Below, one piece after another: positions 8,161 to 32,365 of a stretch of 32,365 nucleotides of DNA. The position numbers were made by a program, and so were the translations under genes. The notes below the pieces were generated by a model. The model saw only the letters and a program-made list of their open reading frames with translations, was not told where the DNA came from and ran no database searches. Location of the stretch: the IMG/VR virus record IMGVR_UViG_3300049479_000104, positions 1 through 32,365 of that record; one strand, written 5' to 3'. Within the stretch, counting starts at the first letter, position 1; each line of letters begins with the position of its first letter. This DNA is from a virus.

Positions 8161-8858
8161 TGACGCCAGAAGAGTTCTACAGCCGCTTCCTACCCTACGC
8201 TCAAGAGGTTTCTGAGCGCACTGGCCTTGACCCTCGCTTGGTCTTGGCTCAGGCCGCGCTTGAAACCGGGTATGGCAAAAGCGCGCCCGCTATGAACTAC
8301 TTCGGCATCAAGTCGCATGGCCGTTCCGGCGGGCAGACTTTGCAAACTTCTGAGTTTGAAGGCGGCCAGATGGTCAGCCAGCCCGCGTCCTTTCGCGGCT
8401 ACGAAAGCCCAGAGCAGTCCTTTGAGGATTATGCCGACTTCCTTCTGAGCAACCCGCGTTACGGCGGCGTGCTGTCGGCTGTCGGGATTGAGGACCAGAT
8501 CGCCGAGATGGCGAAGTCTGGCTATGCGACCGATCCGCAGTATGGCGCGAAGCTGGCGAACATTGCCGGCAAGTTTGATCCGAACGCAGCGCCTATGTCG
8601 GGGCCGACCGTCTCGGCAATGGCCACTGGCAACGCAGGCGTTTCGATGTACGACGTGCCATTTCGGCCTGCCAAGATGGACGATCCGTTCGAGGACATGG
8701 GTGTGCTGTCTCGCTTGGCTGCCAGCCGTGGCATCGCACAGGACGCGGACGCCGCGCCGATTATGAACCTGTTTAATATTCTGACGCAGAAGAAAGACCC
8801 GCGCTTGGCCGAGGCCGCAAAGGCGCGTGGTGGTTTCTTCGGGCTTTTGGGGGGCTAA
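8160..8858 (+). CDS. Virion-associated FlgJ-like glucosaminidase
   Basis: 232 residues, ATG overlapping the upstream TAA. Residues about 5-140 match the glucosaminidase fold of FlgJ/GH73: LDPRLVLAQAALETGYGKSA holds the likely catalytic Glu35, followed by NYFGIKSHG, a strand pair, FRGYESPEQSFEDYADFLL and a Y-A-T-D-P-x-Y-x-x-K-L closing motif. It would cleave the glycan strand of peptidoglycan. The C-terminal 90 residues are unrelated and helical, probably for virion attachment. Position among internal-protein genes, away from the lysis cassette, suggests it acts during DNA entry, not host lysis. Confidence 0.88.
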   Translation: MTPEEFYSRFLPYAQEVSERTGLDPRLVLAQAALETGYGKSAPAMNYFGIKSHGRSGGQTLQTSEFEGGQMVSQPASFRGYESPEQSFEDYADFLLSNPRYGGVLSAVGIEDQIAEMAKSGYATDPQYGAKLANIAGKFDPNAAPMSGPTVSAMATGNAGVSMYDVPFRPAKMDDPFEDMGVLSRLAASRGIAQDADAAPIMNLFNILTQKKDPRLAEAAKARGGFFGLLGG

Positions 8859-9959
8859 ATGGCTATCACACGCGAAGACTTGATGCGCGCGGGTATCGGG
8901 ACGGGCGGCATGAACCCAAACGTCATTCAGGTGAATGAGATGCCTGTTGGCCGCTTGCAGCCGACCGCTCCCATGCCGATGCCAGCACAGGCCGCACCGC
9001 AGCGCCAAGGGTTGCTCGGCGGCTTCTTCGGGCCGCAGGGTCGTGACGCGCGTTCGCGCCTTGCCATTGGCCTTGAGGGCCTCACGATGAACCCCAATCA
9101 GGCGCTGATCGGGCAGTTGCAGCAAGGCATCGAAAGCCGCGAGGCCGCACGCCAGCGCAACGCAACCGCTGATTGGCTTCGGTCCCGCGGGCGTGATGAT
9201 CTGGCAGCGGCCCTTGAGGCTGGCGCTTCGCCGCAGGATGTCTTGGCAGAGGCGTTGCGCCCCGCGCCTACCGTTGATCCGCAGTCTGCGATTGCAAAAC
9301 TTGCAGCGGATCTTCGGAACGGCTTGATTACGCCCCAAGAATATCAGGTTGCTTTGGCAGGTTTGGCCCCATCTCAAACCAACGTATCGATCGGGCCTGA
9401 CGGTCAGGTTCAATTCACGCAAGGCCCCGGCGCAACCGTCAAACCCTTCACCGAAGGCCAGAGCAAAGACGTCGTTTACGCGACGCGCGCTCAGGGTGCG
9501 CTTGAGGTTCTTGAGCCTGTGGCGGGCGAGTTGACGAGCCTCGGCAGCCAAATTGCGGGATATGACCCGACGGGCATGATCCGCAGCCGCGTGCAGTCTC
9601 CCAACTATCAGGTTGCGCGACAGGCGGGCGATGAGTTTTTGCAGGCCATCCTTCGCAAGGACACAGGTGCGGCAATTACAAGCCAAGAACAGGCTCTTTA
9701 CGGCGTGACCTACCTTCCGCAGCCGGGCGATGGCCCGGAGGTTCTTGAGGCTAAACGCGCAGCTCGCCAGCGTGCCGTTGCGGCTATCAACGCGGGGATG
9801 TCCCCGGCACAGATGATCGCCGCAGAAACCGCACTTGGAACGCAAGAGGCCCCCGCGCAAGGCGGCCCGGTTCGCATTTCAAGTGATGCAGAATATGAGG
9901 CGCTGCCGTCTGGCACTCAGTTTATCGGGCCTGACAACAAACTGCGGAGGAAGCCCTAA
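8859..9959 (+). CDS. Internal virion/DNA ejection protein
   Basis: 366 residues starting directly after the previous stop. The N-terminal 60 residues are Pro/Gln/Met rich and probably disordered; a helical region follows (ARSRLAIGLEGL, ADWLRSRGRDDLAAALEAGA). The C-terminal half contains GDEFLQAILRKDTGAAIT, then QEQALYGVTYLPQPGDGPEV, a signature I associate with large podovirus ejection proteins, and ends in a short strand-rich tail (DAEYEALPSGTQFIGPD) common in phage internal proteins. Its stop overlaps the next ATG. No enzymatic motif seen. Confidence 0.7.
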   Translation: MAITREDLMRAGIGTGGMNPNVIQVNEMPVGRLQPTAPMPMPAQAAPQRQGLLGGFFGPQGRDARSRLAIGLEGLTMNPNQALIGQLQQGIESREAARQRNATADWLRSRGRDDLAAALEAGASPQDVLAEALRPAPTVDPQSAIAKLAADLRNGLITPQEYQVALAGLAPSQTNVSIGPDGQVQFTQGPGATVKPFTEGQSKDVVYATRAQGALEVLEPVAGELTSLGSQIAGYDPTGMIRSRVQSPNYQVARQAGDEFLQAILRKDTGAAITSQEQALYGVTYLPQPGDGPEVLEAKRAARQRAVAAINAGMSPAQMIAAETALGTQEAPAQGGPVRISSDAEYEALPSGTQFIGPDNKLRRKP

Positions 9960-12121
9960 TGGGTTGGATGGACGCGCCAGAAGTTAACGCCGGGGCCGCT
10001 TGGGAAAAGGCGCCTGTGCAAGAAGACGTGGTTATGACCACCAAAGACGGCGGGCGGGTTGTTCGCAGCCAATCTGGTAAGTTGTCTTTCGTGTCTCCCG
10101 CGTATTCGACATCTGACCCAGAGCAAGTTCGTCGCATTATGGAAGGTGAGGGTGGCGCTCAGGTTTCGCGCGGCGGGATGCAGGAAAGCATCATCGCACA
10201 AGCACCTGCCGCGGCACGCCTTACCAAGCTGGTTGAGGGAACGCCCTTCATCGGCTCCTACCTTGATGAGGCCATTGGTGCCGTCGCCGGACCAGAAGCA
10301 ACACAGGGCGTCCGCGCTCTTTCGTCGGCGATGGAAGAAGTGCGCCCGGGTCAGTCGCTGGCTCTGAACCTTGGCGGCGCTGGGATCGGCACGGCGGCAA
10401 CCATCGCCGCAACTCCGGCACGCATTGCGGCTGCGCTGGTCCCGTCAACATCGGCAAGAATGTTGCCAAGCGTTGGGCGTGCAGCGGCGACAACCGGGCT
10501 TCTCGGCGCTGTTGAGGGCGGGATTTATGGTGCTGGCCTTGGAGAAGGCGCTGGCCGTGCAGAGACTGCCGGAACAGGCGCTCTGTTTGGTGGCCTTCTG
10601 GGTGGCGCTCTCGGTGGCGCTGCGCCTCTGGTGGCCGCAGGCGCAGAGAATGTTGCTGGCCTTTTCCGGCGCAGCGATGTGGCAAAGATTGCATCCGACC
10701 TTGGCATCTCCCGCGAAGCCGCAACGGTCATCAAAAACACTTTTGACCAAGGCGGAGACATTGCCGCCGCGCGGGCTGCAATTCAACGCGCTGGGTCTGA
10801 GGGAATGCTTGCGGATGCTGGCTTTGCGGCTCAGGCGCTGCTTGACGCATCAGCGGCAACGGGTGGCCGTGCCGGGCAGATTGCTCGTGAGGCCGTCGAA
10901 GGGCGCATGACCAGAACGGGTGAGGCTTTGGACAAGACCCTTGATACCGTTCTTGGGACCGCACCTCTCGGCCCGCGCACTGCCGTTGACGCCATTGCAG
11001 AGCGCACTGCGCCTGCGCGCGAGTTGGCGTACACGACGGCTTACCAGACCCCGATTAACTACGCTGCACCGCAGGGCATGAAGATCGAGGAAGTGCTTGG
11101 CCGCGTTGCGCCTGATGACCTGATTGCAGGCATCGTTGAGGCCAACAAGGAAATGCGCTCGCGCGGCATGGTCAATCAGCAAATCATGGCGGTTCTTGAC
11201 GCAAGCGGAAATGTGGAATTCTTGCGCGAGATGCCAAACGTCCAGCAATTGGACGAGATCAAGAAGGCCCTGCAAAAAATTGCCTATGACAACACCGACG
11301 ACTTTGGGCGTTTGACGGGAACCGGCCAGCGTTACGCGCGCTTGGCTGGTGAGTTGCGCGATGCTGTCGCTGATGCCGTGCCGGATTATCGCACAGCAGT
11401 CTCAATCGGTGGCGACAAGCTGGCCGAGGAGCGGGCGTTTATGCTTGGCCGCGATCTTCTTTCCACCAGAACGGAAATCGAAGACATCGGCTTTGAACTT
11501 GGCAAAAAGCCGTCAGCGGCGCAGGTTGAAGCGGCAAAGTCTGGGTTGCGGTCTTACATCGCAAAGGTTCTTGGCGATGTTCGTGCCGTTCCTTCGGACA
11601 TGAACCTTGACGCCCGCCAAGTGGTCAAGGCTGTCACCGACATGAGCAGCGACAACTCTCGTGCCAAAATCCGCGCGCTGATGGGTGCTGAAGCCGACGC
11701 TCTCTTGAAGCAGGTTGATGAGGCCGCGCAAAGCGCAGTGGTTCGGACTGCATTGGCGACCAACTCTAAGACGGCCATTCGGGGCAGCATCAAAGAAACC
11801 GTTAATGAGCTGACGACGCCCGGCGTTCTGGGCCAAGCAATGGCTGGCGATCCTATCAACACGTCAAAGGCCATTATCCAAGCCGTCACTGGTCAAACCG
11901 AAGAATTCACTGCACAACAACGGCAGCGCATTTTTGAGGATATTGCGAGAGCATTGACAGAAAAGAAGGGCAAGACGGCTTTGTCTGCGCTAAACTACCT
12001 TGAGCAGGCAATGCGCGGCCAACCGCTCACTGCGGCGCAGAACGAATTCCTTGCGCGCCAAATCGCAGGGACGACTATGATTGCTGGTATTCCAGCGGCG
12101 CAAGAGGTGACAGGCCGATGA
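9959..12121 (+). CDS. Large internal virion protein with glycine-zipper membrane region
   Basis: 720 residues; ATG overlaps the preceding TAA. The N-terminus repeats the D-P-E-Q-V-x-x-I-M element of ejection proteins. Residues about 120-235 are hydrophobic with dense Gly/Ala spacing (AGIGTAATIAATPARIAAAL, GGLLGGALGGAAPLVAAG), the pattern of a glycine zipper that can insert in membranes. The remainder is long alpha-helical sequence. By analogy to T7 gp16 and P22 gp16/gp20 it may form part of a trans-envelope DNA conduit. No lytic transglycosylase motif is visible; that activity may be supplied by the glucosaminidase two genes upstream. Confidence 0.7.
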   Translation: MGWMDAPEVNAGAAWEKAPVQEDVVMTTKDGGRVVRSQSGKLSFVSPAYSTSDPEQVRRIMEGEGGAQVSRGGMQESIIAQAPAAARLTKLVEGTPFIGSYLDEAIGAVAGPEATQGVRALSSAMEEVRPGQSLALNLGGAGIGTAATIAATPARIAAALVPSTSARMLPSVGRAAATTGLLGAVEGGIYGAGLGEGAGRAETAGTGALFGGLLGGALGGAAPLVAAGAENVAGLFRRSDVAKIASDLGISREAATVIKNTFDQGGDIAAARAAIQRAGSEGMLADAGFAAQALLDASAATGGRAGQIAREAVEGRMTRTGEALDKTLDTVLGTAPLGPRTAVDAIAERTAPARELAYTTAYQTPINYAAPQGMKIEEVLGRVAPDDLIAGIVEANKEMRSRGMVNQQIMAVLDASGNVEFLREMPNVQQLDEIKKALQKIAYDNTDDFGRLTGTGQRYARLAGELRDAVADAVPDYRTAVSIGGDKLAEERAFMLGRDLLSTRTEIEDIGFELGKKPSAAQVEAAKSGLRSYIAKVLGDVRAVPSDMNLDARQVVKAVTDMSSDNSRAKIRALMGAEADALLKQVDEAAQSAVVRTALATNSKTAIRGSIKETVNELTTPGVLGQAMAGDPINTSKAIIQAVTGQTEEFTAQQRQRIFEDIARALTEKKGKTALSALNYLEQAMRGQPLTAAQNEFLARQIAGTTMIAGIPAAQEVTGR

Positions 12122-28810: not shown

Positions 28811-29188
28811 TTACACCTCCTCCACTTTCACGCCGACCTTGCCCGGCTTGGTTTCAAACGCTGACGCGATCTTGCGCCACGTCTTGGCATCGTTCGTCGC
28901 CAGCCATTTGCAGCCGGTGGCGTCTGCTTCCAGCTTCACCTTCACCGGAGCCATTTCCGGCGAAATGTGCTGCTTGACCTTCTCCCAGACAACGGCGTCC
29001 AGCTTGCGCGTCACCGGCTGGGTGAGCGTGACCTTAAAGCCATCAATCTTGTGGGTCTTGCTTCCTTCGTCGGGGACATCCAGCGCCTGCGCCAGTTCTT
29101 CCTCGATCTTGATGCGAGCCGCGTTGGCCGCATTTTCTGCGCGTTTGGCGTCAAGCCAGTCACGCGCAAGTGCTTGCACGTTGGTCAT
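28811..29188 (-). CDS. DUF7173-like phage protein
   Basis: 125 residues, ATG at 29188 with AGAGAGG upstream. Sequence ARDWLDAKRAENAANAARIK, a GSKTHKIDGFKVTLTQPVTR strand pair, PVKVKLEADATGCKWLATND and a final KVGVKVEEV. This matches the phage family found next to Sak4-like ATPases (DUF7173-type). Two halves: N-terminal helix, C-terminal strand. Possibly a recombination accessory. It is the first gene of the replication operon and carries an internal GTGCAAG-like palindrome right after its start. Confidence 0.75.
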   Translation of the reverse strand: MTNVQALARDWLDAKRAENAANAARIKIEEELAQALDVPDEGSKTHKIDGFKVTLTQPVTRKLDAVVWEKVKQHISPEMAPVKVKLEADATGCKWLATNDAKTWRKIASAFETKPGKVGVKVEEV

Positions 29189-29251
29189 TTTAAACCTCTC
29201 TTTTTCACATCCAACACCGACACACTTGCAGAAACTTTCAACATGTGCAAG
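29166..29251. promoter_or_regulatory. Cluster of TTGCA/TGCAA inverted repeats at the second divergent gap
   Basis: Sites: GCAAG-TG-CTTGC at 29166-29177 (inside the first codons of the leftward gene), CTTGCA at 29225-29230 and TGCAAG at 29246-29251 (6-bp inverted repeat, 15-nt spacer). The half-site GTGCAAG at 29245-29251 is identical to that in the other divergent gap. No clear -35/-10 pair could be fixed. Confidence 0.55.
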
Positions 29252-29284
29252 ATGTTTTTTACGATCTCAAAAAAGAGGGCAAAA

Positions 29285-29461
29285 ATGTTAGAACTGCACA
29301 AGATACAGGAGATGCTGAAGGATCGGCGACTAACTGTTGTGGCCGAGCGATGCGGGCTGTCTTATCCGACCGTTAAGCATGTCGCTGATGGTGGAAAAAA
29401 CGTCACGCTCGCAACTCTGACAAAGCTATCGGATTACCTGAAGGGCGAAGGCAATGAGTGA
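29285..29461 (+). CDS. Small HTH regulator (Cro/CI-like)
   Basis: 58 residues from ATG 29285, which has AGAGGG about six nt upstream; in-frame ATGs at 29243 and 29252 lack one. The sequence MLELHKIQEMLKDRRLTVVA, ERCGLSYPTVKHVADGGKNV, TLATLTKLSDYLKGEG is a classical XRE-type helix-turn-helix. It diverges from the recombination operon across a gap that carries GTGCAAG half-sites, so autoregulation and control of that operon are probable. Overlaps the primase gene by 8 nt. Confidence 0.82.
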   Translation: MLELHKIQEMLKDRRLTVVAERCGLSYPTVKHVADGGKNVTLATLTKLSDYLKGEGNE

Positions 29462-31754
29462 TGCAGCCTCTTTTGCGCGGCGCTACACGTCAGAACTTGG
29501 CTGGTTTCTGGTTGCCATGCCGGCAGGCACAAAGGGTCCAACGTCTTTCGGCTGGCAACAGCCTGAGCGCGCAATCTCTGACCCGGCGAAGGCTGACGCA
29601 TATTTTACCGCCAACCCGTCGCACAACATGGGCCTGCTGCACGGCCCGTCCGGCACCTGCGCCCTTGATGTGGACAACGTGGCGCACACGCGCCTGATCT
29701 TTGAGGCATTGGGCATTGATTATGATGCAATCATTGCCTCCGCGCCTAAGATTGTCGGCCGCCCAGATCGTGGCAAGGTTCTATTCCGCGCACCTGAAGG
29801 CCTAAAAACGCACAAGATTAGCTGGCCGGTGCAAGGTGACCCCCGCCGCACAGAGGTGGTGTTTGAATTGCGCGCTGGGGCCGTGCAGGACGTGCTTCCG
29901 CCGTCTGTCCACCCAGACACTGGCAATCCCTACACCTGGGCCGGCCCGAGCGTCTTTGACGGCCTGCCTGAGATCCCCGCGCCGCTTCTTCTTCTCTGGA
30001 CTGAGTGGGATCGCTTCCGCCCCCAGCTTCAGCAAATTTGTCCTTGGGCGCCCACCAAAGAATTCCAACCACCCCGCAAGCCTCGCGCGCCCAGCGAGCG
30101 CACCAGCGTCATTGATGCCTTCAACGATGCCCATGACATGCACGAGTTGCTTGTGCGCTATGGCTACCGCCCAACAGCGCGCGGCCGCTATTTGTCGCCC
30201 AACAGCAAGAGCAAACTTGCCGGAGTTGTTCTCTTTGACGACGGTCGGGCTTACAGCCACCACGCTTCCGATCCGTTCGACAGCGCCCACACCTTCGACG
30301 CCTTTGAACTTTGGTCCTATTATGAGCATGGCGGCGACATCACCAAAGCCGTTAAGGACGCCGCAAACTTTCTCAACGTCTCGTCCGACCCGGTGCATGA
30401 TTACGAGCCTGAGAAGATCGAGCACGGCCGAAAGGTCGCAGCCCAAATCCTCGCCAAGCCAAAAGAAGCGGCCGGCCCCTTGTCTGACATCCCGGAGCAT
30501 CTGCTTGGTATTCCCGGCGTGCTGCAAGAGGCCGTCCACTATTACAACACCACCGCCCCGAAAGAGCAGCCGCAGTTTGCAGTGCAGGCCGCCCTTGCCT
30601 TCGGATCGGTCGTCATGGGCCGCCGCTGGGTCACCGACCAATCGAACATGTCCGGGCTTTACTTCGTCAACGTCGGAAAGTCGGCCGCCGGCAAGGAGCA
30701 CGCCAAGACTGTTCTTGAGCGCCTGCTTGAGGCGGCCAAGCTGGAACACCTGATTGGCCCGAGCGGTTACACCAGCGCCAGCGGTGTATTCTCTGCCCTC
30801 GTCTCGCAGCCCACGCACCTGAGCATCATAGACGAACTCGGCCGCGTCCTTCAGACGGCACAAGCCGCCGGCAACCACCACAAGACCGACGCCCAGACGA
30901 TCCTGATGGAGGTGTTCGGTCGCCAGACCAGCACGCTTCGCCCGCAAGGCTATTCAAAGATGGGCATCACCGAAAAGCAGGCAAAGGAACTCGACAAGGT
31001 GGTGCGTTGCCCAAGCCTAACTCTCATGAGCATGACAACGCCCAGCACGCTCTATGACAACTTGTCCAGCCGCTACGTCACGGACGGCTTTCTTGGCCGC
31101 TTTGTCATCGTGGAAAGCTACATCGGCCGGCAGCCGTCCCGCATCGTGCGCAGCATTGATCCGGGCGAGCGGCTTTGTGAGTGGGCGCAAGAGTGCGCGG
31201 CCGCGTCCGATGGAAACTTCGGGCCGGGAGAGACGTTCGACATCGCTCCGTCGCCAATCACAATTCCTTTCGCGCCAGAGTGCCATGACCTGCTTCGCGC
31301 CTGCGACATCGACCTCCTTCGCAAGATGGACGAGCATGAGCGGTATGGCTTGGAAGCTATGTTCGGCCGCACAAAAGAAATCGCACAGCGCCTTGCCCTT
31401 ATCGTCGCCAGATCGCGCCGCGAAGAACAGGTGAGCGCCACAAGCCTTGAATGGGCCATAGACTACGCGACCTTCTATTCAGGTCGCGCTGTGGCCGCGC
31501 TTCGCAAGTCCCTCGCTGACGGGCCGTTTGAAGCAGCGTGCAAGGCCGTCTTTGCCAAGATCGAGGCGGCCGGCCTTCGCGGGTGTACGGCCAGCGAGTT
31601 GTCAGAAAACGTCCGGTCCTTTGCGAACCTTGAGCCGCGCAAGCGGCAAGAGGTTTTGGATGCGCTGGTGCAGGACAAAGGCATTGCGTGTCGCAATGTG
31701 AACGAAGGCCAGAAGGGGCGGCCTCGCATGGCTTGGTTCGTTCCGGCCGAATAA
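29454..31754 (+). CDS. Bifunctional primase-polymerase with DUF3987-type helicase domain
   Basis: 766 residues from ATG 29454, overlapping the HTH gene. Residues 1-170: primase-polymerase (AEP type) with TSFGWQQPERA, NMGLLHGPSGTCALDVDN holding the catalytic D72-x-D74, TEVVFELRAG and DVLPPSVHP (His152). Residues about 235-305 carry a GYRPTARGRYLSPNSKSKLA element typical of primase-linked regions. From about 340 a DUF3987-like ATPase begins with Walker A VGKSAAGKE (K413), Walker B IIDE (457-460) and FLGRF as arginine-finger region. The last 80 residues form a winged helix. The protein can prime and unwind DNA, so it is likely the core replisome enzyme. Terminator follows within 25 nt. Confidence 0.88.
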   Translation: MSDAASFARRYTSELGWFLVAMPAGTKGPTSFGWQQPERAISDPAKADAYFTANPSHNMGLLHGPSGTCALDVDNVAHTRLIFEALGIDYDAIIASAPKIVGRPDRGKVLFRAPEGLKTHKISWPVQGDPRRTEVVFELRAGAVQDVLPPSVHPDTGNPYTWAGPSVFDGLPEIPAPLLLLWTEWDRFRPQLQQICPWAPTKEFQPPRKPRAPSERTSVIDAFNDAHDMHELLVRYGYRPTARGRYLSPNSKSKLAGVVLFDDGRAYSHHASDPFDSAHTFDAFELWSYYEHGGDITKAVKDAANFLNVSSDPVHDYEPEKIEHGRKVAAQILAKPKEAAGPLSDIPEHLLGIPGVLQEAVHYYNTTAPKEQPQFAVQAALAFGSVVMGRRWVTDQSNMSGLYFVNVGKSAAGKEHAKTVLERLLEAAKLEHLIGPSGYTSASGVFSALVSQPTHLSIIDELGRVLQTAQAAGNHHKTDAQTILMEVFGRQTSTLRPQGYSKMGITEKQAKELDKVVRCPSLTLMSMTTPSTLYDNLSSRYVTDGFLGRFVIVESYIGRQPSRIVRSIDPGERLCEWAQECAAASDGNFGPGETFDIAPSPITIPFAPECHDLLRACDIDLLRKMDEHERYGLEAMFGRTKEIAQRLALIVARSRREEQVSATSLEWAIDYATFYSGRAVAALRKSLADGPFEAACKAVFAKIEAAGLRGCTASELSENVRSFANLEPRKRQEVLDALVQDKGIACRNVNEGQKGRPRMAWFVPAE

Positions 31755-31755
31755 C

Positions 31756-31772
31756 TCGGACATTTATCCGGA
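31756..31772. promoter_or_regulatory. CGGA palindrome, degenerate copy
   Basis: TCGGACATTTATCCGGA, one base short of a perfect inverted repeat; it lies right after the primase stop. Related to the perfect sites at 31840 and 31978. Confidence 0.45.
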
Positions 31773-31778
31773 AGGCTT

Positions 31779-31808
31779 AATCAGGGCTTAAGGCCCTGAT
31801 TTTTTTTG
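31779..31808 (+). terminator. Strong rho-independent terminator after the primase gene
   Basis: AATCAGGGC (31779-31787), loop TTAAG, GCCCTGATT (31793-31801), then an uninterrupted T-run to 31807. Perfect stem and a long T-tract; the best terminator in this window. Confidence 0.93.
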
Positions 31809-31839
31809 ACTTTTTGATTTATCCCATTTCTTCCTATTA

Positions 31840-31855
31840 TTCGGACACATCCGAA
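31840..31855. promoter_or_regulatory. CGGA palindrome, perfect
   Basis: TTCGGA-CACA-TCCGAA, a perfect 6-bp inverted repeat with a 4-nt spacer, next to an AT-rich stretch (31801-31840). Confidence 0.65.
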
Positions 31856-31882
31856 CAGACAAGACACCACTAAGAACAGAAT

Positions 31883-31932
31883 GGGAGGGGGTGGGGGAAG
31901 AAGTGTATATATATACCCCCCATCCCCCCCCC
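31883..31932. repeat. G-tract / TATA / C-tract symmetrical block
   Basis: GGGAGGGGGTGGGGG (31883-31897), then an AAGAAGTG linker, TATATATATA-like alternating sequence (31905-31915) and a C-rich run (31916-31932) able to pair with the G-tract. It can form a hairpin, and the G-rich strand has three adjacent G-runs compatible with a G-quadruplex. Easily melted centre flanked by G/C blocks, as in many phage origins. Confidence 0.7.
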
Positions 31933-31977
31933 TTTACTATTCTCCTAAGAAAACAAGAGGTTAACGATTGCGATTTC

Positions 31978-31998
31978 TTCGGACAGGTGGTGTCCGAA
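31978..31998. promoter_or_regulatory. CGGA palindrome, long perfect copy
   Basis: TTCGGACA-(5 nt GGTGG)-TGTCCGAA, an 8-bp perfect inverted repeat. It sits over the -35 region of the promoter that would make the structured RNA at 32031, so a protein bound here could block or activate it. Confidence 0.7.
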
Positions 31999-32018
31999 TA
32001 ATTGGGAATAAATGCCGG

Positions 32019-32024
32019 GATAAT
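32019..32024 (+). promoter_or_regulatory. -10 box candidate for the structured RNA
   Basis: GATAAT, five of six matches to TATAAT, about seven nt before the start of the predicted RNA. The -35 (17 nt upstream) falls in the right arm of the 31978 palindrome and is poor in consensus, which would fit an activator- or repressor-controlled promoter. Confidence 0.4.
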
Positions 32025-32030
32025 CTGCTG

Positions 32031-32137
32031 TTGATCGGCAAGTAGTCTTCAGCTACACTCGCCCCACAACATCTCCCTGTTGGACTACGCCTGCCCAACT
32101 TAGCCCAGCCGCCCCTCCTCGGCTGGGCCTTTCTTTT
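32031..32137 (+). ncRNA. Candidate structured small RNA or leader ending in a terminator
   Basis: A 107-nt gene-free segment with nested pairing: GGCA (32037-32040) with TGCC (32092-32095), GTAGTC (32042-32047) with GACTAC (32083-32088), and inside it CAACA-6-TGTTG (32067-32082). GTAG can alternatively pair with CTAC at 32053-32056. It ends in the terminator at 32103-32137. No known RNA family recognised and not a tRNA. It could be a free sRNA or an attenuator leader for the ParB-domain gene that starts 70 nt after the terminator. Confidence 0.45.
32103..32137 (+). terminator. Rho-independent terminator upstream of the ParB-domain gene
   Basis: GCCCAGCCG (32103-32111) pairs with CGGCTGGGC (32120-32128) across an 8-nt C/T loop, followed by CTTTCTTTT. 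Perfect 9-bp GC-rich stem with a good T-rich tail. Confidence 0.85.
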
Positions 32138-32155
32138 GCCGCGAGCCTGCGCTAT

Positions 32156-32170
32156 GATGCAGGCTGCATC
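32156..32170. promoter_or_regulatory. Operator candidate GATGCA-GGC-TGCATC
   Basis: Perfect 6-bp inverted repeat, 3-nt spacer, 36 nt upstream of the ParB-domain ATG. A TATGAT -10 candidate (32153-32158) overlaps its left arm, so it may control that gene. Confidence 0.5.
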
Positions 32171-32206
32171 CACCGGGCAAACAGCACGAGAGCGAAGGGC
32201 GACAAC

Positions 32207-32365
32207 ATGACAAGCAAGCCAGAATTTCCGATCTATAAAACAGCCCCCGTCGCAGAACTGATCCCATACGCCCGCAACAGCCGCACTCACTCGCCGCAAC
32301 AGGTGGACAAGATCGCCGCCAGCATCCGAGAATTCGGCTTTCTCAACCCCATCATCGTGGACGGC
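32207..32365 (+). CDS. ParB N-terminal domain protein (partial; possibly ParB-methyltransferase)
   Basis: 53 codons from ATG 32207 to the window edge, with GAAGGG upstream. Sequence APVAELIPYARNSRTHSPQQ, VDKIAASIREFGFLNPIIVD matches the N-terminal ParB/Srx fold at its beginning (ELIPYARN-x-R-x-H and the A-x-S-I-x-E-F-G-F-x-N-P motif). In phages this N-terminus usually precedes a DNA-methyltransferase domain, giving a DNA-modification enzyme; it could also be a stand-alone ParB-like nuclease. The rest lies outside the window, so the second domain is unknown. Confidence 0.85.
   Translation, partial: MTSKPEFPIYKTAPVAELIPYARNSRTHSPQQVDKIAASIREFGFLNPIIVDG

Follow-up and report, generated by a model that had tools for sequence, protein, structure and literature searches.

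A putative phage replication origin with facing iteron arrays that co-vary with the adjacent Prim-Pol/MCM-like protein

The gene-free region and its neighbours

The window, meaning the whole stretch of DNA analysed here, comprises 32,365 bases of a virus record. Because end repeats are absent, the record may be incomplete. Near its right end an earlier note had pointed out a gene-free control region, and there is indeed no plus-strand open reading frame of at least 60 amino acids between the stop of a Prim-Pol gene at 31754 and the start of a ParB-like gene at 32207. The gene to the right (32207–32365, plus strand) encodes a ParB domain, possibly fused to a methyltransferase (phrog_620, 9.7e-16; phrog_498, 2.4e-14), and is cut by the end of the window. 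To the left, a gene for a Cro/C1-type HTH protein of 58 amino acids (29285–29461, plus strand; Pfam HTH_26, E 1.1e-4; phrog_18104) overlaps the start of the Prim-Pol gene. The AT-richest 120-bp stretch of the window is found at 29185–29285, between this HTH gene and a divergent DUF7173 gene, and is probably the promoter region of the replication operon.

The Prim-Pol gene (29454–31754, plus strand) encodes the proposed initiator, a protein of 766 amino acids. The Prim-Pol domain lies at its N-terminal start (Pfam, 8.9e-22), and an AlphaFold model of the protein has a pLDDT of 78.8. Residues 355–682 have an MCM-like AAA+ fold even though Pfam gives no helicase match here: they align with archaeal and eukaryotic MCM AAA+ cores over 266 residues (Z 19, rmsd 3.2). 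All structure matches of this core are MCM AAA+ proteins; SF3 helicases are unlisted, which does not exclude SF3. The C-terminal residues 687–766 (31512–31751, plus strand) are the proposed iteron-binding domain, a winged helix with the topology a1-b-a2-a3-b-wing-b in two models (a1 691–709, a2 713–719, a3 728–742, wing 745–762). Foldseek also relates this domain to winged-helix proteins, but weakly (best E 0.046), and a sequence search of solved structures gave no match.

The earlier note had described three related palindromes in the gene-free region. Sites 2 and 3 are exact, while site 1 (CTCGGACATTTATCCGGA, 31755–31772, plus strand) is imperfect in the window, although its counterpart in the relatives L004 and L005 is the exact palindrome TTCGGACATTTATCCGAA. 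That such palindromes are absent elsewhere was borne out, as the pattern TTCGGA-N3..12-TCCGAA has no other match in the window (0.01 expected; two matches are reached in none of 100 shuffles). The half-site TTCGGACA alone has one further copy at 11593, so single half-sites are unremarkable and it is the pairing that counts. What the earlier note missed is that the palindromes are parts of something larger, namely 9-bp iterons repeated in tandem and arranged as two arrays that face each other. Iterons of the window type have ten matches in the whole window, and eight of these fall within 31762–32024.

Reading from the left, site 1 contains the iteron ATTTATCCG (31762–31770). It is followed by a predicted intrinsic terminator of the Prim-Pol operon (31779–31809, plus strand; predicted at 31779–31801), which had been noted before and whose stem shows a compensatory change from GGGC/GCCC to GGGG/CCCC in L004–L006. 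The left array consists of ATTTATCCC, ATTTCTTCC and ATTATTCGG (31817–31844, plus strand) and carries at its inner end site 2, the exact palindrome TTCGGACACATCCGAA (31840–31855), which is degenerate in L004–L006. The central block of G-tract, TATATATATA and C-tract, likewise recognised earlier, was located at 31883–31932; it is near-invariant in L002–L006, could form a hairpin (DNA fold z −2.1 in the window) and is the probable unwinding region. On its other side lies a head-to-head pair of iterons, ATTTCTTCG forward and ATTATTCGG reverse (31973–32002), and it is this pair that forms site 3, the exact palindrome TTCGGACAGGTGGTGTCCGAA at 31978–31998. The remainder of the right array is made up of ATTTATTCC and ATTATCCC (32005–32024, minus strand).

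Beyond the right array there is a sigma70-like promoter of the right-hand operon, TTGATC-17-TACACT (32031–32059, plus strand), which is below the prediction threshold but has similar sequences in L002 and L008. A strong terminator-like hairpin is predicted within 75 bases of it (32103–32135, plus strand) and is again present in L002 and L008. Such an arrangement at 32031–32135 could possibly be a short RNA or the leader of an antiterminated late operon. The region has no Rfam or tRNA match, and searching phage and plasmid records for sequences similar to it returned methyltransferase fragments only. Cumulative GC skew has its minimum at 32356, close to the window's right-hand end, as the earlier note's suggestion of an origin would lead one to expect; the test is nevertheless weak, because a change of gene strand at about 19 kb explains the profile equally well.

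The same layout among relatives

Relatives were collected by searching with the upstream Prim-Pol gene; a scan for the palindrome pattern returned mainly loci that were already known. In these relatives, which range from near-identical to about 58% identical, the facing iteron arrays are kept downstream of the same gene, and the layout persists even where 0.3–2.4 kb of other genes lie between Prim-Pol and the origin. The arrays flank a G/C-tract hairpin and a block that is either TATATATA or (AAT)n/AT-rich. Most relatives have the G/C hairpin, in more distant clades with G- and C-tract in the opposite order, but since its fold z-scores span about 0 to −3.8 its conservation between the arrays is suggestive only. 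Among relatives whose origin is intact, most have the palindrome corresponding to 31978. Across L002–L006 the arms of this head-to-head pair are invariant and the spacer is variable, and L010, L088, L133 and L084 have a pair at the same place with other bases. As an example of the complete arrangement, L004 has ATTTATGCC ATTTATCCC ATTTATTCCGGCA on the left side and ATTATCGGC ATTTATTCCC ATTTATTCGGACA on the opposite strand of the right side. Iterons were searched for near L081 and L083, and none were found.

The iteron consensus among the relatives is ATTTAT-b7-b8-b9, and the sequence varies between phages. In L007 and L010 the iterons contain TGCGG where the window has TTCGG, for example ATTATGCGG in L007 versus ATTATTCGG in the window; in L007 all iterons are changed, and from one phage to another the repeats change together. 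Other clades have ATTTATGGC or ATTTATTGC. In the close relative L003 (about 8300–9200), one arm of the right palindrome has TTCGG and the other TGCGG. The same genome has a gene inserted between Prim-Pol and the origin, and the left half of its origin is replaced.

Hosts appear to be alphaproteobacterial, and for the cultured relatives the host is Roseobacter. A search of genome contigs gave one relative, which sits inside a MAG bin: L134 (JAALKB010000131.1) is binned with a gammaproteobacterial MAG and carries a Roseobacter-phage-like Prim-Pol region, and it is likely a phage contig within that bin. In CRP-902 the iterons (around 2461) lie inside an annotated hypothetical gene of 85 amino acids, CRP902_gp09 (2242–2499 in L144/L145, OQ401624.1), which thus overlaps the predicted iteron origin; this gene call may be spurious.

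Iteron bases and residues of the winged helix

Iteron sequences vary from phage to phage, and they do so in step with the C-terminal winged helix of the Prim-Pol protein. This was examined with a scan of all 766 columns of the protein in 30 lineages, in which sequences more than 95% identical and with the same label were merged. Some of the base labels were judged by eye, at a time when the rule was already known; an automatic count agrees with these classes where sites are plentiful, with the exception of L082, for which the automatic doublet call is an artefact of the core pattern and the label was set by eye to GGC. Residue 714 (codon at 31593–31595, plus strand; Ser in the window) ranks first of all columns as predictor of b7, with a score of 0.50 against 0.20 for the next. 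Arg goes with G in 16 lineages and with T or C in one, while Ser, Ala or Gly goes with T or C in 13 and with G in none. The rule thus fits 29 of the 30 lineages (Fisher p 1.2e-7, uncorrected for kinship).

Contrasts were also drawn on trees from which the C-terminal domain had been left out. On these trees residue 714 and b7 each change at least 5–7 times, and among five independent pairs the change is in the same direction in 4–5 and in the opposite direction in none. Three of the pairs are on well-supported branches, which is too few for significance in a sign test limited to such contrasts. The rule was also used for prediction. Predictions for L017/L048 and L041 held in searches that left b7 and b8 free, and those for three further lineages, L161/L179/L184, L174 and L197, recorded before looking, all held as well. 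A fourth, L075 (6000–6341), contradicts its prediction: it combines Arg714 with ATTTACCGA iterons, in a contig that ends inside the origin.

Since repeat and enzyme change together across phages, the tail of the replication enzyme apparently recognises the repeats, and one residue in the winged helix probably reads b7. In winged helices recognition is usually the task of helix a3. Residue 714 sits instead at the beginning of a2, which is an uncommon position from which to read bases. In the case of b8, a first version of the code, in which residue 713 reads this base, was broken by CRP-902 and L087 (TASQ with TGC) and was abandoned. Residue 718 was substituted for it after the fact; Glu or Asp goes with C and Arg or Lys with G, again fitting 29 of 30 lineages. 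It is plausible from this comparison that residue 718 reads b8, though the pattern is inseparable from shared ancestry. In the b8 scan many columns tie, the C-type group being nearly one clade, and for this reason no predictor of b8 is claimed.

A proposed origin and its place among known systems

The earlier note had suggested a replication origin or a switch, with the primase, either HTH protein or the ParB-domain protein as candidate binders. The conserved architecture and the co-variation with the initiator strongly support an origin, and no evidence was found for a switch. The primase is the only one of these binders to gain support, given that the iterons track its C-terminal winged helix. 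The gene-free stretch is therefore best read, with a probability of about 0.84, as the phage replication origin, its iterons presumably bound by the adjacent Prim-Pol/MCM-like/winged-helix protein. At the level of sequence this is supported by the arrays, by the way their layout is kept and by residue 714 and b7 changing together.

From here we infer DNA binding, double-ring loading, melting site, priming and direction along the following lines. The protein, encoded directly upstream, would use its C-terminal winged helix to bind the 9-bp iterons. With the two arrays pointing at each other, a pair of helicase rings would be set head to head on either side of the G/C hairpin and the TATATATA block, which would then melt; the Prim-Pol domain would prime on the exposed strands, and replication would depart in both directions. 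As the right array abuts the promoter-like sequence at 32031–32059, a protein bound to the iterons may also reduce transcription of the right-hand operon. A bolder proposal, which we hold only tentatively, is that a single polypeptide could recognise the origin and position itself there as two rings that face each other, with no need of ORC, DnaA or a loader, through a code (714 reads b7, 718 reads b8) that would have been switched repeatedly in nature.

The position of the right array next to a sigma70-like promoter, and the fact that the HTH gene belongs to the same operon, could also be taken to mean that the palindromes are operators of the Cro/C1-type protein, forming a transcriptional switch on the right-hand promoter. 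This is very unlikely and was rejected, as L007 and the window share an identical HTH protein while the L007 iterons all have TGCGG instead of TTCGG; the iterons are moreover direct repeats oriented towards an AT-rich block, which is not how a simple operator looks, and the promoter region of the HTH gene itself is without such sites. A parS-like partition site for the right-hand ParB-domain protein, which the adjacent gene and the inverted repeats might suggest, can hardly be entertained at all. The site is not linked to a parB gene across relatives: in L063 the same right half precedes another gene, the near-identical origins of L004 and L005 are followed by a different gene, and in L003/L004/L005 and L008 the array is present but the ParB gene is not beside it. 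The domain itself resembles methyltransferase-linked ParB-like domains (phrog_498), and no ParA gene was noticed among the part of the open reading frames that was searched. The ParB-domain gene is thus probably not part of the origin, and neither it nor the HTH gene is likely to encode the reader of the iterons.

It could also be that the region is an origin but that its iterons are read by a host protein or another phage protein, residue 714 following b7 for some other reason. In its favour, no sequence-specific binding was seen in vitro for ORF904 of pRN1 (PMC4234260). We consider this improbable, because a single winged-helix residue tops 766 columns and changes repeatedly with the base, with Arg accompanying G every time it does so, and because a host protein would not switch along with the phage enzyme.

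Sequence comparison by itself has thus yielded a motif together with a residue that is its probable reader. The phage group is abundant in marine and freshwater environments, and its published cultured members are without an annotated origin. Because pairs in which one base and one residue are switched occur naturally, the specificity lends itself to a direct test. The MCM-like core would offer a compact model for helicase loading. Repeated switching of the code would, if true, give mutually exclusive sets of origins within one phage group.

Among published phages, the Roseobacter phages CRP-901 and CRP-902 are direct relatives with a 58% identical Prim-Pol protein, the same gene order and iterons (PMC10149686). 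Their iterons are of the type ATTTATTGC and differ from those of the window; the paper describing them does not mention an origin (PMC10149686). Among better-known systems, the initiator helicases SaPI Rep and SCCmec Cch2 recognise, through a C-terminal domain, iterons that immediately follow the genes encoding them (PMC7581432). The phage resembles them in having short tandem iterons close downstream of the initiator gene and, according to the models, an AAA+ helicase core with a C-terminal winged helix; the SCC helicase Cch, related to Cch2, is MCM-like (PMC7581432), as is the core here. It differs in that a single polypeptide carries Prim-Pol, MCM-like core and winged helix, that the 9-bp ATTTATNNN iterons lie on both sides of a G/C hairpin in arrays that face each other, and that the hosts are apparently alphaproteobacterial. 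Phage P4 alpha is likewise a multifunctional primase/helicase whose winged helix binds origin repeats, as is proposed here, but its primase is of the Toprim type and the repeats are different (PMC4234260). A small repressor-like HTH gene, a multidomain Prim-Pol replication protein and a terminator are shared with pRN1, and so may be a hairpin in the putative origin that follows them (PMC4234260), the HTH gene at 29285–29461 holding the position of orf56, and phage BIP-1/BPP-1 has been grouped with the pRN1 replicon as a comparison for the Prim-Pol/helicase/winged-helix layout (PMC4234260). Unlike pRN1 (orf56/orf904), which has no iterons and an SF3 helicase, the phage has clear iterons and a helicase model that matches MCM; for initiators of the ORF904 type the bound motif has been described as not yet identified (PMC4234260). 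The present phage would thus combine features of SaPI/SCCmec and of pRN1, and appears to add natural switches of specificity to them.
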